A DNA stretch of 28,942 nucleotides from a virus: IMG/VR virus record IMGVR_UViG_3300025759_000492, positions 1-28,942 of that record; one strand, given 5' to 3'. Shown here in pieces: positions 632 through 23,884 of the stretch. The position numbers and the translations under genes were made by a program. Numbering within the stretch: the first letter of the stretch is position 1; every line of letters begins with the position of its first letter. The notes beneath the pieces were generated by a model. That model had not been told where the DNA came from and ran no database searches. It worked only from the letters and a program-made list of their open reading frames with translations.

Positions 632-852
632 TGGCTGTTTATGTATATGTTGATGAAAGTATTAAAGCTGATATTAATAATTTAACTGTTCATTTTGATT
701 TTCCATCTGATATGAATGCTGATGAATGTATAGCTAATATTGATAAGCTAGTATCATTAGCAAATAATCATGATGATATTAAAATATTATCTCATGAACA
801 TAGTGTTTTTAGTGTTTCACAATTCAGTCCAGTAGCTGAAACGATAAAATAA
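631..852 (+). CDS. Hypothetical protein, 73 aa
   Basis: A 73-residue protein beginning MAVYVYVDESIKADINNL, the last gene of the overlapping chain from 2 to 852. CAGGAGG lies just upstream of its ATG. The sequence suggests a small alpha/beta protein, acidic in the middle (SDMNADECIANIDKL). No conserved motif or membrane segment is visible and I recognise no family. Downstream is the gene-free structured stretch 853-1185, so the transcript probably changes character here. Confidence 0.75.
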   Translation: MAVYVYVDESIKADINNLTVHFDFPSDMNADECIANIDKLVSLANNHDDIKILSHEHSVFSVSQFSPVAETIK

Positions 853-874
853 CGCAACACGAAACAAAGCTATT

Positions 875-1028
875 TACATTGCTGGAAAGGTTTATTCATA
901 ACCATCCCGCCAGCCGTTAGACCATAATGTAGGTAGCTTGTAGCACATAGAAGTAAATGCGTATAGCGAATACGAAAGTATGGTCGCTTTGTAGGTTGAA
1001 TTCCTACCAACTGTGTGTTACAAGCTAC
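875..1028 (+). ncRNA. Candidate structured RNA, three-way junction
   Basis: No gene fits between 853 and 1185, but nested inverted repeats do. A long stem pairs 933-950 (GTAGCTTGTAGCACATAG) with 1011-1028: 18 consecutive pairs, two of them G-U wobbles that are valid only in the + strand RNA. Inside are a GNRA-capped hairpin (966-987: GCGA, ATAC, loop GAAA, GTAT, GG bulge, TCGC) and a 5-bp hairpin with a 7-nt T-loop-like loop TTGAATT (991-1007). Upstream, 875-880 TACATT pairs with 926-931 AATGTA around GCTGG (881-885)/CCAGC (910-914) and GGTT (889-892)/AACC (900-903). Structure is seen in sequence; a function (ncRNA, leader or riboswitch) is inference. No known family was recognised. Confidence 0.55.
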
Positions 1029-1133
1029 TTATTAACTGGATAATGTTCTATATATAAAAAAATGTGATTTATCCCAATATTAAGTAGCGCTAAAGTAAAA
1101 GTAAAAAACGATATACAAAAAATATCTACACAT

Positions 1134-1171
1134 GTATGACGTGCCGTTACCCTATGTACGGCACGCCATAC
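1134..1171 (+). promoter_or_regulatory. Leader hairpin directly upstream of an SD
   Basis: GTATG-A-CGTGCCG (1134-1146) pairs with CGGCACG-C-CATAC (1159-1171) around a 12-nt loop, giving 12 pairs with one A-C mismatch. The GAAAGGAG SD follows at 1172-1179, and the ATG at 1186. Such a stem could protect a processed 5' end, attenuate transcription or position the SD. GC content is far above the surrounding sequence. It may belong to the same leader as the structure at 875-1028. Confidence 0.55.
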
Positions 1172-1185
1172 GAAAGGAGAAAGAT

Positions 1186-1611
1186 ATGGAATTTCATGGA
1201 ACACATATTGACGTACGTTCTAGACCAATGAATGATTACATTGTTGAGTTTGCATTTATATTAGATGCAGAATCAAATGATGCAGAAATGAATCATGTGT
1301 ATAGAATAGAAGTCAAAGCAGTGTCAATGATAGATGCAATTAATGTTGCACAAGACATACTTGTAGTAGAAAAAGCTAATACATTTCAAGGTTTTCTTGA
1401 TAGTAAGCGAGGTGCAGATGATATGTCAGCTGATGATATTCAAAATGAAAAACAGCATATTATGCAAGCATGGATATTAGATGACCCTACAGCTATACAA
1501 GTATTCACAAAAGATAATATTGATATGTTACGTAATGTAACAGAAAAAAATGTTATGGATAACATAGAAAATATATCTGATGAAGTAGAAGAATTTCTAA
1601 AGGAACAGTAA
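1186..1611 (+). CDS. Hypothetical protein, 141 aa
   Basis: A 141-residue acidic protein starting MEFHGTHIDVRSRP. I chose ATG 1186 because GAAAGGAG sits 6 nt upstream; an in-frame ATG at 1132 would lie inside the leader hairpin and lacks an SD. The first half looks like a beta-rich/alpha unit (IVEFAFILDAES, VYRIEVKAVSMIDAINVAQDILV); the C-terminus is helical and glutamate-rich. No motif recognised. It is the first gene of the operon leading to the AAA+ ATPase and VWA protein, so a supporting role for them is possible but unproven. Confidence 0.75.
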   Translation: MEFHGTHIDVRSRPMNDYIVEFAFILDAESNDAEMNHVYRIEVKAVSMIDAINVAQDILVVEKANTFQGFLDSKRGADDMSADDIQNEKQHIMQAWILDDPTAIQVFTKDNIDMLRNVTEKNVMDNIENISDEVEEFLKEQ

Positions 1612-1615
1612 AGAT

Positions 1616-1921
1616 ATGTTACCCGAAGGAATGAAAGCAGCTAATCCACCAGAACCATTCGGCAATAGAAAAGGTAAACAACCTTCATTATTGACAGATG
1701 AAAAAGTAAAAATACTTTTATCTATGCCTAATCAATGGTTTATTATCGGTACACGTGATAAGTGGATAAGCGGTGTTAAAGCAAATATTGAGTCTATGAC
1801 TCAGTCAAACATATCTCATCTTGTTTCTAAAGGTAAGTTCGAGATACAACAAAGAAAAAATGATGATGGACAAATAGATATTTATTGTCGATTTGTTACG
1901 TCAACTCTTGAAGAAGAGTAA
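1616..1921 (+). CDS. Small protein with PNxW motif, 101 aa
   Basis: A 101-residue protein (MLPEGMKAANPPEPF...). After a basic/proline-rich head comes MPNQWFIIGT, resembling the SPNKWVAMDV and NPNKWVVLDM segments of the proteins at 6564 and 6856. All three may share a small fold: PNxW strand, basic helix, then a beta segment (FEIQQRKNDDGQIDIYCRF here). The ATG lies 5 nt after the previous stop; a usable SD is AAGGAAC within the end of the preceding gene. It ends EEE before the AAA+ gene. Function unknown; DNA association is a guess. Confidence 0.7.
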   Translation: MLPEGMKAANPPEPFGNRKGKQPSLLTDEKVKILLSMPNQWFIIGTRDKWISGVKANIESMTQSNISHLVSKGKFEIQQRKNDDGQIDIYCRFVTSTLEEE

Positions 1922-1936
1922 TAGAAAGGAAATACT

Positions 1937-2659
1937 ATGGAAAATACAGCTGATTGCTGGAAATTGGTAAACGCTGTACTAGGTCAGTCACGTAGAATAT
2001 TGTTATACGGGCCACCAGGTACAGGTAAATCATATAGTGCGGTAAAACAAAACGCACCACTAAACATAAATGGAGAACCTAATGTGTTCTCTGTTACTAT
2101 GACAGAAGATACTGCTAGTGCTAATCTAGAAGGTTTTTACAAACCTAGTTCTAGCGGTACATTTGAATGGCATGACGGTATTGCAATACAGTCATGGAGA
2201 AATGGCGGTAGATTAGTTATTAACGAAATCGACCACGCATCACCAGATGCAATGACATTTCTTCACGCTATTCTTGATGACCAAGAGATAGCGCAATTAA
2301 CAATAAACAATGATGACAAGGAAACAGTTAGACCAGCTGCAGGCTTTCAGGTTATAGCTACAACTAACAGTCCACCAGAGTCATTACCATTAGCACTAAA
2401 GGATAGATTTCCAGTCAAAATACACGTTGACAAAATTCATCCAAAAGCTATGGAAAAATTCCCAGATGAATGGCACAAGGTAATTAACGATACTTCTATT
2501 GTTGATGACCCAGAAGCAAGAATTTCTGTACGTTCATGGAAAGAGTTCTTTGAATTACAGAAAAAGGGATTTGATATAGAAGTTGCTGCAAAACTTGTAT
2601 TTGCTGATAAAGCAGAAGAATTAGTAGATGCAGTTACTCTAGCTAAAGCAGATGCGTAG
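1937..2659 (+). CDS. MoxR/CobS-like AAA+ ATPase
   Basis: A 240-residue AAA+ ATPase. Visible motifs: Walker A GPPGTGKS at residues 25-32, Walker B LVINEID at 93-99, sensor-1 asparagine in ATTNSPP (N144), and a likely arginine finger in ALKDRFP (R157). The compact size and adjacency to a VWA protein match MoxR/CobS-type ATPases, which remodel or load protein complexes or metal cofactors together with a VWA partner. A good SD (AGAAAGGAAA) precedes the ATG. The stop overlaps the VWA gene start by 8 nt, implying coupled expression and a complex. The substrate in this phage is unknown. Confidence 0.9.
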   Translation: MENTADCWKLVNAVLGQSRRILLYGPPGTGKSYSAVKQNAPLNINGEPNVFSVTMTEDTASANLEGFYKPSSSGTFEWHDGIAIQSWRNGGRLVINEIDHASPDAMTFLHAILDDQEIAQLTINNDDKETVRPAAGFQVIATTNSPPESLPLALKDRFPVKIHVDKIHPKAMEKFPDEWHKVINDTSIVDDPEARISVRSWKEFFELQKKGFDIEVAAKLVFADKAEELVDAVTLAKADA

Positions 2660-4124
2660 TAAACCTTATCCTTATCCAGAGATTGTAACTGGAGATGAAT
2701 GGACAGTCAACGAAACTATCGGTGACCAACAAGCATGTACAGATAATCTGAACAAACAAATGTATGTTCCTTTGGATAGGGAATGTGAATCATGTGGTAT
2801 AAACCATGGTCGTATGATACGTAGGCATGAGTTAGGTCATGCTAAATGGTCACCAAAGACTATGGGTAAACTACCACCTACAACTAGACCAGAAGCTATT
2901 GAAGTACTAGAAGAGATAAGAGTTAATTATCTTATGTATTTAAATGGATTAGGTATCAATGAGCCAACACAATGCGAAGCTATTGTTGAAGCTAAAACAA
3001 TGGGCCTAATCATGAATGCATCAGTTACTGATTTGCTTTTATATGGTTTAGCTTGTTTCTGGCATACTAACAATAAAATATCAGAACAAACTTATATGAC
3101 TGATTATTTGTATCATATACAAAATTATGAACTTAGTCATGAGTTTAGACGCTTTAAAGCACTGATGGCTGACGCTATTGTTGATAAAGCAATGCATCCT
3201 ATTAGACAAAATGAACTACAATTTGTTTTGAATACGATAGATATGTTTGTTAAAAAATTATTACAAAGCAGACATAATTATCAACCTATGATTTCATATC
3301 GTAAGGTACAAAAGGTTGCACAAGATTTATCAACTATCCTTAATGCATTTATGGATAAACCTAATCCAGATGAAATTACAGCACCACAACAACAAAATGG
3401 TTCTAGTAATCAATCAGGTGAAGGTGATAATGAAGATGACAATTCTGAAGCTGAAGCTGGTGCTGGTAATGCTGATGAACTAGAAAAACGTATGCGTAGA
3501 GCATTATCTGAAAAGATGATTGACTATCATACTTCTGCTGGTATAGGTCAATGGGGTGATATGACAATTCATACACCACCATTATCAGTTAACTTGCAAA
3601 GCAGAATTAAAGGTGCTAGAGCATATAGACCATCTGATTATGGTTACAATCCTAAATACATAAATCGTTATTGTATTGATAAGAAAATATTCAAACAAAA
3701 ACAACGTGTATTAGGCGGTACTATATTAATAGATGCTTCTGGTTCAATGCGTTTTGATGGCCATGACTTATTAGAAATAATGAAGTTATTACCAGCAGTA
3801 ACAATTGCTATGTATAACGGTCGTCTTGATACAGGTGATTTACGTATTATTGCTAAAAATGGTATGCGTGTAAATGATGAATATATTCATGAACATGTAG
3901 GTTATGGTAATATAATTGACGGTCCAGCATTAGAATGGTTAGCTACTATGCCAGAAAGACGCATTTGGATATCAGATATGTATGTATTTGGTAAAGCTGG
4001 TCGTGGTCAATCTGGTGCAAACCTTGTCAGAGATTGTTTAAATATTGTTACTAAAAACAAAATTATCAATCTACAAAATATAGACGAAGTAAAGGAACAT
4101 GCTATAAAACTTAATATGGTATAG
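2652..4124 (+). CDS. CobT-like VWA protein with HELGH metallopeptidase-like motif
   Basis: A 490-residue protein. Near the N-terminus are CESCG and HELGH (residues 59-63), followed by an acidic EEIRVN segment at about 87-92 that could supply a third zinc ligand, as in metallopeptidase-like domains found before VWA domains (DUF2201-type). A long helical part follows, then an acidic linker rich in D/E at about 255-280, resembling that of CobT. The C-terminal VWA domain carries the MIDAS motif DASGS at 361-365. It is the natural partner of the overlapping AAA+ ATPase. No SD precedes the start, consistent with translational coupling. Proteolysis is not shown; the HExxH could be structural. A Ro60/TROVE relation was considered, but I see no TROVE motifs. 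Confidence 0.85.
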   Translation: MRSKPYPYPEIVTGDEWTVNETIGDQQACTDNLNKQMYVPLDRECESCGINHGRMIRRHELGHAKWSPKTMGKLPPTTRPEAIEVLEEIRVNYLMYLNGLGINEPTQCEAIVEAKTMGLIMNASVTDLLLYGLACFWHTNNKISEQTYMTDYLYHIQNYELSHEFRRFKALMADAIVDKAMHPIRQNELQFVLNTIDMFVKKLLQSRHNYQPMISYRKVQKVAQDLSTILNAFMDKPNPDEITAPQQQNGSSNQSGEGDNEDDNSEAEAGAGNADELEKRMRRALSEKMIDYHTSAGIGQWGDMTIHTPPLSVNLQSRIKGARAYRPSDYGYNPKYINRYCIDKKIFKQKQRVLGGTILIDASGSMRFDGHDLLEIMKLLPAVTIAMYNGRLDTGDLRIIAKNGMRVNDEYIHEHVGYGNIIDGPALEWLATMPERRIWISDMYVFGKAGRGQSGANLVRDCLNIVTKNKIINLQNIDEVKEHAIKLNMV

Positions 4125-4130
4125 TTTGGG

Positions 4131-4360
4131 GAACATAGCAACTGGCAACAGTGCTTATGAACTCCTTTCCATAAGTTAAGCTATGTTCACGTAGTGGAAT
4201 AGAGTCGGAAGAGAACTCCGAACAAGGGTGACCAGTCATGTCAACAATAATCCTATAGTTAACACCACTACACCTATTCGTTAGCAAGCGTTGCAGCAAG
4301 AAAGCTAAAGCGTCTGCAAGCAGTCACCTTATTTTAGCAATACAATATATAGCAAAATAA
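4131..4360 (+). ncRNA. Candidate structured RNA with anti-SD-like loop
   Basis: The gene-free stretch 4125-4464 (340 nt) is full of inverted repeats. GAACATAGC (4131-4139) pairs with 4180-4188 and encloses ACTG-GCAA-CAGT (4141-4152, GNRA tetraloop) and CTTATG/CATAAG (4154-4159/4170-4175) with loop AACTCCTTTC, so a three-way junction. The loop carries CTCCTTTC, matching the usual 3' end of 16S rRNA (anti-SD). Next, GTAGTGG (4191-4197)/CCACTAC (4265-4271) encloses TCGGA/TCCGA (4205-4221) and TGAC/GTCA (4229-4243). Then come TTGCAG/CTGCAA (4291-4296/4314-4319) and TTATTTT/AAAATAA (4329-4335/4354-4360). Beyond, GCGTAGC occurs twice at about 4375-4395. Strand choice follows flanking genes. Function is unknown. 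Confidence 0.55.
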
Positions 4361-4451
4361 TTAGGCCTGTGAGTGCGTAGCGGTAAGCGTAGCTTTTAGG
4401 TGCAGAGCGGCTAACAACAAATTTAATCCTTGTAATAATAAATAATCTGTA

Positions 4452-4457
4452 TATAAT
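4452..4457 (+). promoter_or_regulatory. -10 element TATAAT of a likely leaderless promoter
   Basis: A perfect TATAAT lies exactly 7 nt before ATG 4465, so transcription would start at or beside the start codon. There is no SD in the AT-rich lead-in. No clear -35 box is visible. Same geometry as at 5760 (+) and 14204 (-). Confidence 0.5.
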
Positions 4458-4464
4458 GAAAACT

Positions 4465-4698
4465 ATGAATATAGATGAAATGCTTAAAGAAGCAGAAACT
4501 GGAAAACGTAGTGCAGTAGTTGACCGAATTACAGACGAAGCTAAACCATTTTGGCAAGGTTGTGAAGAACGTGTTGCTGCTGGACGTGCGTTAAAACCAT
4601 ATGTCGTTTCTAGATTACTTAGAGATGAATTTGGTATCAAGATAAGTGAATCAGCAGTGAGAAATCACTTTCAAAATATAGCAGAAGTTAATGAATAA
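4465..4698 (+). CDS. Small helix-turn-helix-like protein, 77 aa
   Basis: A 77-residue protein (MNIDEMLKEAETGKRS...). Its C-terminal half, LKPYVVSRLLRDEFG followed by ISESAVRNHF, reads like a helix-turn-helix with a recognition helix at SAVRNHF. I chose ATG 4465 over the in-frame ATG 4456 because TATAAT ends 7 nt before 4465 and 4456 lies inside the -10 box. The stop overlaps the metallophosphoesterase start by 8 nt. Likely DNA-binding, perhaps an early regulator or a recombination accessory; the exact role is not visible. Confidence 0.75.
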   Translation: MNIDEMLKEAETGKRSAVVDRITDEAKPFWQGCEERVAAGRALKPYVVSRLLRDEFGIKISESAVRNHFQNIAEVNE

Positions 4699-5749
4699 AA
4701 AAGAATTAGATAAACTATTTGCTGAAGCTGAATCACAAAAAATTACTGAATTAAAAGCTGATAATGTTAGATTGCTTAAATCATTAGAAAAAGCTAAAAA
4801 TAAAAAAGCTGATATGATTGAAGCAGTTTATGACGCTGTATCTACTAACTTACGAACATGGGATAAACCTAAAGTTCCTAAACCAACTGTTCATAAAAAA
4901 AATAAAAATGAAGAAGTTGCAGTAGCAGTATTATCAGACATTCAGTTAGCAAAAGTAACTCCAGATTATAACACAAAAGTAGCTGAAGAACGTGTCATTG
5001 AATATGCAAATAAAATTGTTGAATTGACAAACGTGCAAAGATATGCTCATCCAGTTAACAAATGTGTTGTACTTGCAGCTGGAGATATTGTAGAAGGAGA
5101 ACTTATATTCCCAGGACAAACACACTTGATAGATGCAAGCTTATACAATCAAGTAACAATTGACGGTCCTAGAATATTGACACAGTTCTTTGACATACTT
5201 CTTGCTAATTTTGCTGAAGTAGAAGTACATTGGGTAATAGGTAACCATGGCAGCTTAGGCGGTCGTGCAAGGAAAGACTATCATCCAGATTCTAATGCAG
5301 ACAGAATGCTAGGCAAGATAATGGATATGGTATATGAAAATGAAAAACGAATACAATTTACTATTCCAGATAGTGAAGGCGATAATCATTGGTTTGACAT
5401 TGCTGATATTGGTAAAGGATGTAAATTCTTTGTCTGGCATGGCGATAATGTTAGAGGACACAGTGGTTTTCCATGGTATGGATTTGGTAAGAAGCTATTA
5501 GGTTGGAAAGCATTAGCATCAAGAGGTTTAATGCCTGATTTTGATTACGCTATTGCTGGACATTTTCATACACCTACAACAATGTACGTTAATGATATAC
5601 GTTTATGGGTTAATGGTAGTACTGAAAGCTACAACACATACGCGTTAGAACAGTTAGCAAGCATGGGTAGGCCGTGTCAATGGCTTTTATTTGCTAAACC
5701 TAATCACGGCGTAACAGCCGAGTATCTTGTTAAGCTTAACGAGAAGTAA
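4691..5749 (+). CDS. Calcineurin-like metallophosphoesterase
   Basis: A 352-residue protein. Residues 1-45 form a charged probable coiled coil. The catalytic domain follows with the metallophosphoesterase motifs in order: SDIQ (first metal motif, with Q in place of the usual H), AAGDIVEGE, GNHGS, WHGDN and AGHFH. The family includes Mre11/SbcD nucleases and phosphatases; phages often carry such enzymes near recombination genes, as here (Rad52-like gene at 6001). Substrate is uncertain: nuclease or phosphodiesterase. The DxQ change is worth noting, since the histidine normally binds metal. Translated in overlap with the preceding HTH gene. Confidence 0.9.
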   Translation: MNKKELDKLFAEAESQKITELKADNVRLLKSLEKAKNKKADMIEAVYDAVSTNLRTWDKPKVPKPTVHKKNKNEEVAVAVLSDIQLAKVTPDYNTKVAEERVIEYANKIVELTNVQRYAHPVNKCVVLAAGDIVEGELIFPGQTHLIDASLYNQVTIDGPRILTQFFDILLANFAEVEVHWVIGNHGSLGGRARKDYHPDSNADRMLGKIMDMVYENEKRIQFTIPDSEGDNHWFDIADIGKGCKFFVWHGDNVRGHSGFPWYGFGKKLLGWKALASRGLMPDFDYAIAGHFHTPTTMYVNDIRLWVNGSTESYNTYALEQLASMGRPCQWLLFAKPNHGVTAEYLVKLNEK

Positions 5750-5982: not shown

Positions 5983-6000
5983 TTTATAGAAAGGATTGTT

Positions 6001-6561
6001 ATGAATAATAACGTTGACTTACTATCCCCTTTTCCATCTGAATTAGTGCGTAAAGCACCAGCAGGTAAGTTTGGGGATTACGTACCACACGCTAATTATG
6101 TAGAAAGATTACGCGATAGTGGTGTCAAATACTCATGGACATGCGAACCTGTTTACGGTATGCATAACGGTGAGAAAAGAATAGTTGGTGCTAAAGGTAC
6201 TATAACTATTGATGGCATGGGAAGTTATGACGGCTTTGGTGACGTAGATACATTTAAATTATCTAACGCAAAGTTTAATGACGGAACAAATCTAAAAGAT
6301 GCTGAGTCTGATGCATTTAAACGTGCATGCATGAGGTTCGGTTTAGGAGTAGAGCTATGGTCTGGTTCTAAGCAATCAGAAGAGGAAGCTACAGCAGTAG
6401 CACCTGATGGTTACACAGCTGAAATGGCAGCTAAAGATGCACAAGTTGAAGTAACTAAAGTTGATATGCGTAAGAAAGAGAACAAGCCTACTAAAGAAGA
6501 TATAGCACGTATGGAATCAATAATGGACGATATTTTAAATGCGTCTGATAAAGGAGAATAA
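6001..6561 (+). CDS. Rad52/ERF-like single-strand annealing protein
   Basis: A 186-residue protein. The region KDAESDAFKRACMRFGLGVELWSG (about residues 98-122) is the signature of Rad52/ERF-type single-strand annealing proteins, preceded by a beta-rich part (ITIDGMGSYDGFGDV). These proteins form rings on single-stranded DNA and promote annealing in phage recombination and concatemer formation. The C-terminus is charged and helical. SD AGAAAGGA lies 7 nt before the ATG. Followed by three short genes that may belong to the same recombination operon. The family call is strong; the exact subfamily is not resolvable by eye. Confidence 0.88.
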   Translation: MNNNVDLLSPFPSELVRKAPAGKFGDYVPHANYVERLRDSGVKYSWTCEPVYGMHNGEKRIVGAKGTITIDGMGSYDGFGDVDTFKLSNAKFNDGTNLKDAESDAFKRACMRFGLGVELWSGSKQSEEEATAVAPDGYTAEMAAKDAQVEVTKVDMRKKENKPTKEDIARMESIMDDILNASDKGE

Positions 6562-23863: not shown

Positions 23864-23884
23864 CCTCCGTATATTGTCGTATTA
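23864..23884 (-). promoter_or_regulatory. SD of the capsid gene with T7-promoter-like stretch
   Basis: Reading the - strand, TAATACGAC is followed by AATATACGGAGG. The first nine bases equal the start of the T7 promoter and TATA-GGAG elements follow two bases too early. The GGAGG is a strong SD. No phage RNA polymerase gene is visible in this window, so promoter activity is uncertain and chance resemblance is likely. Confidence 0.3.

Follow-up and report, generated by a model that had tools for sequence, protein, structure and literature searches.

Directly behind a gene for a VWA-domain protein, the window analysed here (a 28.9-kb virus record, 28,942 nucleotides in full) can be folded into a small three-way junction whose loop resembles the 3' end of 16S rRNA, and the locus raises the question of whether this is a genuine phage RNA and, if so, what its loop might bind. 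The capsid protein of this phage is closest to those of Mycobacterium and Propionibacterium phages, and its phosphoesterase to that of Streptomyces phage Dagobah, each with less than 60% identity; the host is likely actinobacterial, such as Actinomarina. For phages of this host group, a GC content of about 34-37% has been reported (PMC7771536, PMC3861242).

Selection of relatives, models and controls

Relatives were selected by the upstream VWA-domain protein alone (presumably CobT-like), and the motif CCTTTC was counted behind it without the use of any RNA model. The VWA protein fetched 80 virus contigs, of which 76 contain the stop codon plus sequence beyond it; the other four were dropped. 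Two structure models were used: model R1 was built from 15 sequences and covers the whole RNA of the near relatives (the first alignment omitted loci L055 and L080, the latter of which matches R1 only at 21 bits), and model R2 was built from 11 sequences, including the window, and covers the three-way junction, termed domain A; two deeper scans with VWA alignments extended the set to distant relatives. Because MAFFT misaligned the loop of stem P3, base pairs were counted on alignments made with the models, and such alignments are biased towards the structure; slid-structure controls and the model-free CCTTTC count served as guards against this bias.

Fold of domain A

The original prediction of a three-way junction at 4131-4188 was right in its coordinates, folds and letters: the minimum-free-energy (MFE) structure is identical to it, and the centroid prediction gives the same junction. 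The fold has -19.3 kcal/mol, compared to -8.35 (sd 2.63) for shuffled sequences (z -4.16; none of 200 shuffles was as good), and the window scores 78.1 bits with R2. The GCAA tetraloop proposed for the second hairpin, P2, is also present in the window; among 78 distinct domain A sequences, this tetraloop is of GNRA type in 69, with GCAA common and not universal. A pseudoknot of the P3 loop with purine-rich letters before P1 was checked by eye and is not kept in L071, L072 and L077. The features of the locus are summarized in Table 1.

Table 1. Features of the window that bear on the RNA behind the VWA gene
Feature	Position	Strand	Basis and remarks
Domain A, three-way junction RNA, core element	4131..4188	+	Fold z, covariation, R2 match
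P1 stem of domain A, nine pairs	4131-4139/4180-4188	+	Read from the letters; MFE identical
P2 hairpin	4141..4152 (pairs 4141-4144/4149-4152)	+	GCAA tetraloop at 4145-4148
P3 stem	4153-4159/4170-4176	+	
P3 loop, AACTCCTTTC (= AACUCCUUUC)	4160..4169	+	Invariant core CCUUUC at 4164-4169
Domain B, second covarying domain	4191..4271	+	Helices 5 and 6 of the R1 alignment; 72/96 distinct relatives
Whole near-clade RNA (closing helix P0, domains A and B)	4124..4278	+	R1 match, 108.4 bits, E 5.4e-20
VWA-domain gene, anchor for relatives	2652..4124	+	ORF; PHROG 33218 (unknown function); synteny; stop 6 nt before domain A
SD of operon lead gene (1186-1611), GAAAGGAG, candidate target	1172..1179	+	GAAAGG in 28/32 orthologs
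MoxR-like AAA ATPase gene, candidate target	1937..2659	+	Pfam AAA_5, 2.4e-20; GAAAGGA SD at 1924-1930; GAAAGG in 30/46 orthologs
GAAAGGA SD of single-strand annealing protein (SSAP) gene (6001-6561), candidate target	5989..5995	+	37/50 orthologs; PHROG 3290
GGAGG SD of major capsid gene, late type	23864..23868	-	AGGAG/GGAGG in 51/51 orthologs, GAAAGG in 0/51
Next-gene promoter, TTGTAA-16-TATAAT	4430..4457	+	-10 TATAAT at 4452-4457
Gene after the RNA	4456-4698	+	In-frame ATG at 4465, 7 nt past the promoter; no SD in 64/66 orthologs

Conservation across relatives

Domain A is a real, conserved three-way-junction RNA that always stands right after the VWA gene. CCTTTC was found 34-86 nt past the VWA stop in each of the 227 VWA-selected loci (91 distinct; nine further loci were too short to judge), compared to 132 of 4,780 random 110-nt windows, and the RNA follows the VWA stop in the 76 VWA-fetched contigs. 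Of 100 chosen sources, R2 matched 95 with an E cutoff of 5, 94 of them at E below 0.001, and gave no match in five; R1 found one copy in each of 100 sources. Two-sided changes were observed for 18 of the 19 pairs of domain A, with 448 compensatory cells against 128 after shuffling (78 distinct sequences), and the arms themselves are diverse, with 45 different 5' arms for P1 and 43 for P3.

Selection by a different gene led to the same place. A capsid-protein sample comprised 78 loci, and the records of 30 of these were searched: 28 contain the VWA gene, two of them on contigs that end inside it, and all 26 uncut records bear the element, 17 by R1 match (17 of the 30 searched) and nine by reading. 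In these nine, CCTTTC lies in the same type of hairpin directly after VWA, and domain B is absent or diverged. A letter scan for domain B, the loop not included, returned at least 100 stretches from virus contigs and a single one from genome contigs; where flanks were long enough, VWA lies upstream and the same two next genes downstream. The sole genome contig, part of a MAG, bears the same phage genes and is thus probably a phage contig; an R2 scan of 150 genomes of that MAG's phylum with stricter filters matched this MAG only.

For the near relatives, the alignment to R1 comprises two-sided changes for 34 of 37 pairs, with 702 cells against a shuffled mean of 187 (77 distinct rows), and 96.0% of its cells are paired, compared to 22-43% for slid structures; the covariation and the slid controls therefore establish that these phages have a genuine structured RNA, about 155 nt long. 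When 96 distinct regions behind domain A were sorted by simple patterns, 72 continued with domain B, six with a tmRNA-like element and 18 with neither. Domain A is the best-conserved portion of the two-domain RNA of close relatives and, with its loop, is regarded as the core, since many distant relatives have it without domain B. A further domain B helix (GGU...ACC) was by eye not universal and was kept out of the model.

No Rfam family reached its threshold in a covariance scan of the whole window, and a permissive scan of 800-4460 gave merely two unrelated weak matches. In the phage GenBank collection, neither the DNA of the region nor the VWA protein had a relative, R2 had no match in the fetched stretches of Streptomyces phages Dagobah and DSL-LC01, the nearest annotated phages by phosphoesterase, and no report of this VWA-linked phage RNA was found in the open-licence literature.

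The invariant loop

CCUUUC comprises the only columns that never change (100% in the 78 distinct domain A sequences). The letter before it is U in 72, with an alignment gap in the other six, and the loop letters farther 5' vary (UU, CU, AU, UC). The loop had been proposed to equal the 3' end of 16S rRNA, that is, what we take to be the anti-Shine-Dalgarno (anti-SD) sequence; this holds for invariant CCUUUC, the complement of GAAAGG, and full identity to CCTCCTTTC is confined to some members (e.g. L038 and L415). A loop that drifts on conserved stems had been named as the pattern that would speak against the proposed anti-SD role of the loop, and the relatives present the opposite, a fixed loop on stems that vary freely and stay paired.

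Shine-Dalgarno classes and candidate targets

The complementary SD that had been pointed out before the gene at 1186 is indeed located there, and it belongs to a frequent class in this phage group: GAAAGGA is among the leading upstream motifs (112 of 582 phage ORFs; shuffled mean, 1.6). On the strand that carries the RNA, 181 of 798 ORFs are preceded by GAAAGG, versus 3 of 289 on the opposite strand, and AGGAGG-type sites alone number 117 and 33, respectively; these counts take in ORFs that are possibly not genes, and the test was repeated with orthologs. The pooled orthologs have GAAAGG and AGGAG-type sites in a ratio of 118:85 for the early and 3:136 for the late genes, for which a Fisher test is only a guide, as the orthologs come from related phages and are not independent. 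The same-strand genes are presumed to be early from their replication and repair functions. Gene by gene, GAAAGG prevails in three same-strand genes and in none of the opposite-strand genes with at least 20 orthologs. The same-strand SDs are not uniform (AGGAG in 31 of 38 orthologs of g8844 and in 19 of 35 of g1616), and an SD is mostly missing from the orthologs of VWA and of the two genes that follow the RNA.

For the commonest loop, UUCCUUUC, predicted duplexes with the g1186, moxR and SSAP sites have -8.4 to -9.3 kcal/mol, compared to -3.8 to -5.3 for seven AGGAG-type late SDs. The window's own loop, AACUCCUUUC, gives -8.4 to -11.4 for the same three genes and -6.5 to -9.4 for AGGAG-type late genes, and hence separates the early from the late SDs less well than the commonest loop. 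Complementarity alone is weak evidence, because any anti-SD-like loop must complement SDs.

A signal beyond this was sought in the variable loop letter two positions before CCUUUC and the letter after AAAGGA in the SD, where C would go with G and U with A. Across phages, CUCCUUUC loops occur with AAAGGAG (50 G : 29 A) and UUCCUUUC loops with AAAGGAA (26 G : 89 A); per gene, the association holds for g1186 (6/7 versus 1/21) and for SSAP (10/17 versus 0/18), and none was seen for moxR (p 0.19). In near relatives, moxR had fewer matches than expected (8 versus 11.5) and SSAP as many as expected (20 versus 20.2). The VWA protein tree contains four loop changes only, with two to three independent pairs for g1186 and SSAP, which is not significant. 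The covariation of loop and SD is confounded by descent and counts as a hint; a target-specific extension of the pairing was rejected, being weak for g1186, missing for moxR and SSAP in near relatives, and nowhere significant after tree control.

As a separate observation near the operon start, the leaders of L021, L050 and L062 contain hairpins that pair CCTTTC or a similar stretch with a GAAAGG SD just before the start codon.

Proposed function and alternatives

The most likely function, at slightly less than an even chance, is that of a 3'-UTR RNA that pairs with early SDs and represses translation, including that of its own operon. Domain A would be the functional end of the early operon transcript g1186-g1616-moxR-VWA, folding directly after the VWA stop, with the P3 loop keeping open the letters CCUUUC, which repeat the 3' portion of the 16S anti-SD. 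It may be released by processing or may act from the mRNA 3' end; no conserved promoter of its own was seen upstream of the RNA. The loop would then pair with GAAAGG(A) SDs in competition with the ribosome and lower the translation of early lead genes, i.e. the operon's first gene, its own moxR and the annealing protein gene. The outcome would be negative feedback and possibly some help in the passage from early to late expression. The feedback is suggested by the layout, in which the loop of an operon-end RNA complements the operon's own lead SD, as with c4 of P1/P7, and the early-to-late help by the capsid-module genes, which use GGAGG and are poorly paired by UUCCUUUC. Pairing with SDs is preferred for this feedback layout, for the manner of c4 and for the precedent of RBS pairing by B11. 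A separate domain A RNA, its pairing, the repression and its timing are what we infer. This mechanism neither needs nor explains domain B.

An extended form of the proposal, which we regard as unlikely, is a switch of translation timing that reads SD dialects, such that early lead genes marked by GAAAGGA are silenced by an RNA that reproduces just the matching half of the 16S tail and late genes with GGAGG are spared; this RNA would be paired in one subclade with a second ribosome-directed RNA, tmRNA-like and without reading frame.

The main rival to SD pairing, itself rather unlikely, is a loop that serves as binding site of a host or phage protein reading UCCUUUC, e.g. one whose normal ligand is the 16S 3' end; through this protein the RNA would be a regulator, a decoy or a signal of the mRNA end. 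Protein-bound hairpins, too, are marked by a constant loop on stems that vary freely, a GNRA hairpin adjoins in 69 of the 78 sequences, and the covariation of loop and SD is not proof against phylogeny; however, the invariant letters coincide with the sequence complementary to the main SD on the same strand of the phage, and the variable letter follows the SD dialect, a trend that is not significant once the tree is controlled for.

Less probable still is a cis-acting element in which the junction ends the moxR-VWA operon mRNA, as terminator or exonuclease barrier, and insulates the next gene, which is probably transcribed as leaderless mRNA in view of the distance between its -10 and its ATG. 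The constant place between the VWA stop and the next genes is consistent with such a role, as are U-rich letters after P1 in some distant relatives, but a terminator does not need an invariant loop, a search of 3900-4720 gave no terminator-like site, and domain B or the tmRNA-like element follows in 78 of the 96 distinct relatives.

The loop also complements general actinobacterial SDs, and an abundant RNA of this kind could act as a sponge that lowers host translation generally (shut-off) while leaderless phage mRNAs escape. The absence of an SD from nearly all orthologs of the next gene, with its promoter so close to the ATG, would agree with this; yet the best-matching SDs sit on the phage's own early genes, which would for this reason be hit first, and we consider a sponge improbable.

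Highly improbable is a decoy whose stable loop protects host ribosomes from a MazF-type endoribonuclease with the anti-SD as its cleavage site (mycobacterial MazF-mt3 is specific for UUCCU/CUCCU, and such toxins cut the 16S tail that the loop letters equal), as UUCCU or CUCCU is present in 78 of 91 distinct loops, but the 13 others (UCCCUUUC, AUCCUUUC and GCCUUUC loops) lack both pentamers and nevertheless keep CCUUUC constant.

If SD pairing is correct, domain A would be one of the few phage RNAs directed at ribosome binding sites, and its class of targets could be recognized in the genome sequence. A structured RNA that is fixed in a whole marine phage group allows a test of whether phages regulate by SD class.

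Other elements around the VWA gene

The phage group is marked by several unexplained RNAs around the same gene. An RNA of 76-80 nt in seven loci matches both ends of tmRNA (RF00023, E 7.5e-18 to 1.9e-8); it has no reading frame, and a short hairpin replaces the tmRNA middle of roughly 300 nt (L433, 4590-4668; L434, 4573-4650; L435, 4570-4645; L439, 4570-4647; L443, 4579-4654; L430, 3874-3952; L436, 1339-1418). It lies directly 3' of domain A in six of the seven loci, and by eye a G3-U70 pair, the identity element for alanine, seems to be retained in its acceptor stem. Downstream of domain B, a hairpin in L060, L056, L009 and L016 has internal-loop letters that occur, by eye, in both orientations among phages, as though the hairpin acted as DNA or were mobile.

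Between the RNA and the next gene, L009, L054, L057, L020, L070 and L077 have an SD and behind it a mini-ORF that consists of a start and a stop codon (ATGTGA or ATGTAA), and several of the mini-ORF loci also carry a TTAATTAA-like stretch. At 935-1030 of the window, conserved inverted ends (consensus GTAGGTAGCTTGTAGCACATAG...CTGTGTGTTACAAGCTATCTATA) flank variable inserts; this element is found in many related loci, often in more than one copy, and the same inserts recur across phages, a pattern that we read as shuffled hairpin cassettes.

Comparison with known systems

Domain A would work like c4 of phage P1, the mycobacterial 6C/B11 RNAs and the cuckoo RNAs, and by its features belongs to none of them. 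The c4 RNA is made from the same transcript as its target, and Rfam holds a c4 family. The complementary letters of c4 in P1 and P7, probably located in loops, are described to bind a phage mRNA in the region of its ribosome binding site and to block translation (PMC12197685). Domain A resembles it as a phage RNA with SD-complementary letters and a candidate target SD in the same operon (1172-1179); in contrast, c4 has a single mRNA (ant) as its specific target and a role in immunity, whereas domain A is one three-way junction with a loop that fits a class of SDs. No match to c4 or to 6C/B11 was obtained for the window in the Rfam scans, the c4 covariance threshold included.

Actinobacterial B11 is reported to have open pyrimidine loops that repress through RBS pairing (PMC10470900). 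Domain A likewise exposes a pyrimidine loop complementary to ribosome binding sites, a likeness of complementarity only, but B11 has two loops with runs of C, and domain A is a phage three-way junction with only one such loop, CCUUUC, and lies directly behind a gene. The alpha-r14 or cuckoo RNAs of alpha-proteobacteria, e.g. NfeR1, are characterized by an ultraconserved unpaired anti-SD motif on divergent stems (PMC10746234). The same pattern is found in domain A, with six invariant columns on 43 different P3 arms among 78 sequences; however, the cuckoo RNAs present CCUCCUCCC in three hairpins, and domain A presents CCUUUC in one loop, with another architecture and in another host group. The anti-SD likeness to the cuckoo RNAs is shared logic, not kinship.
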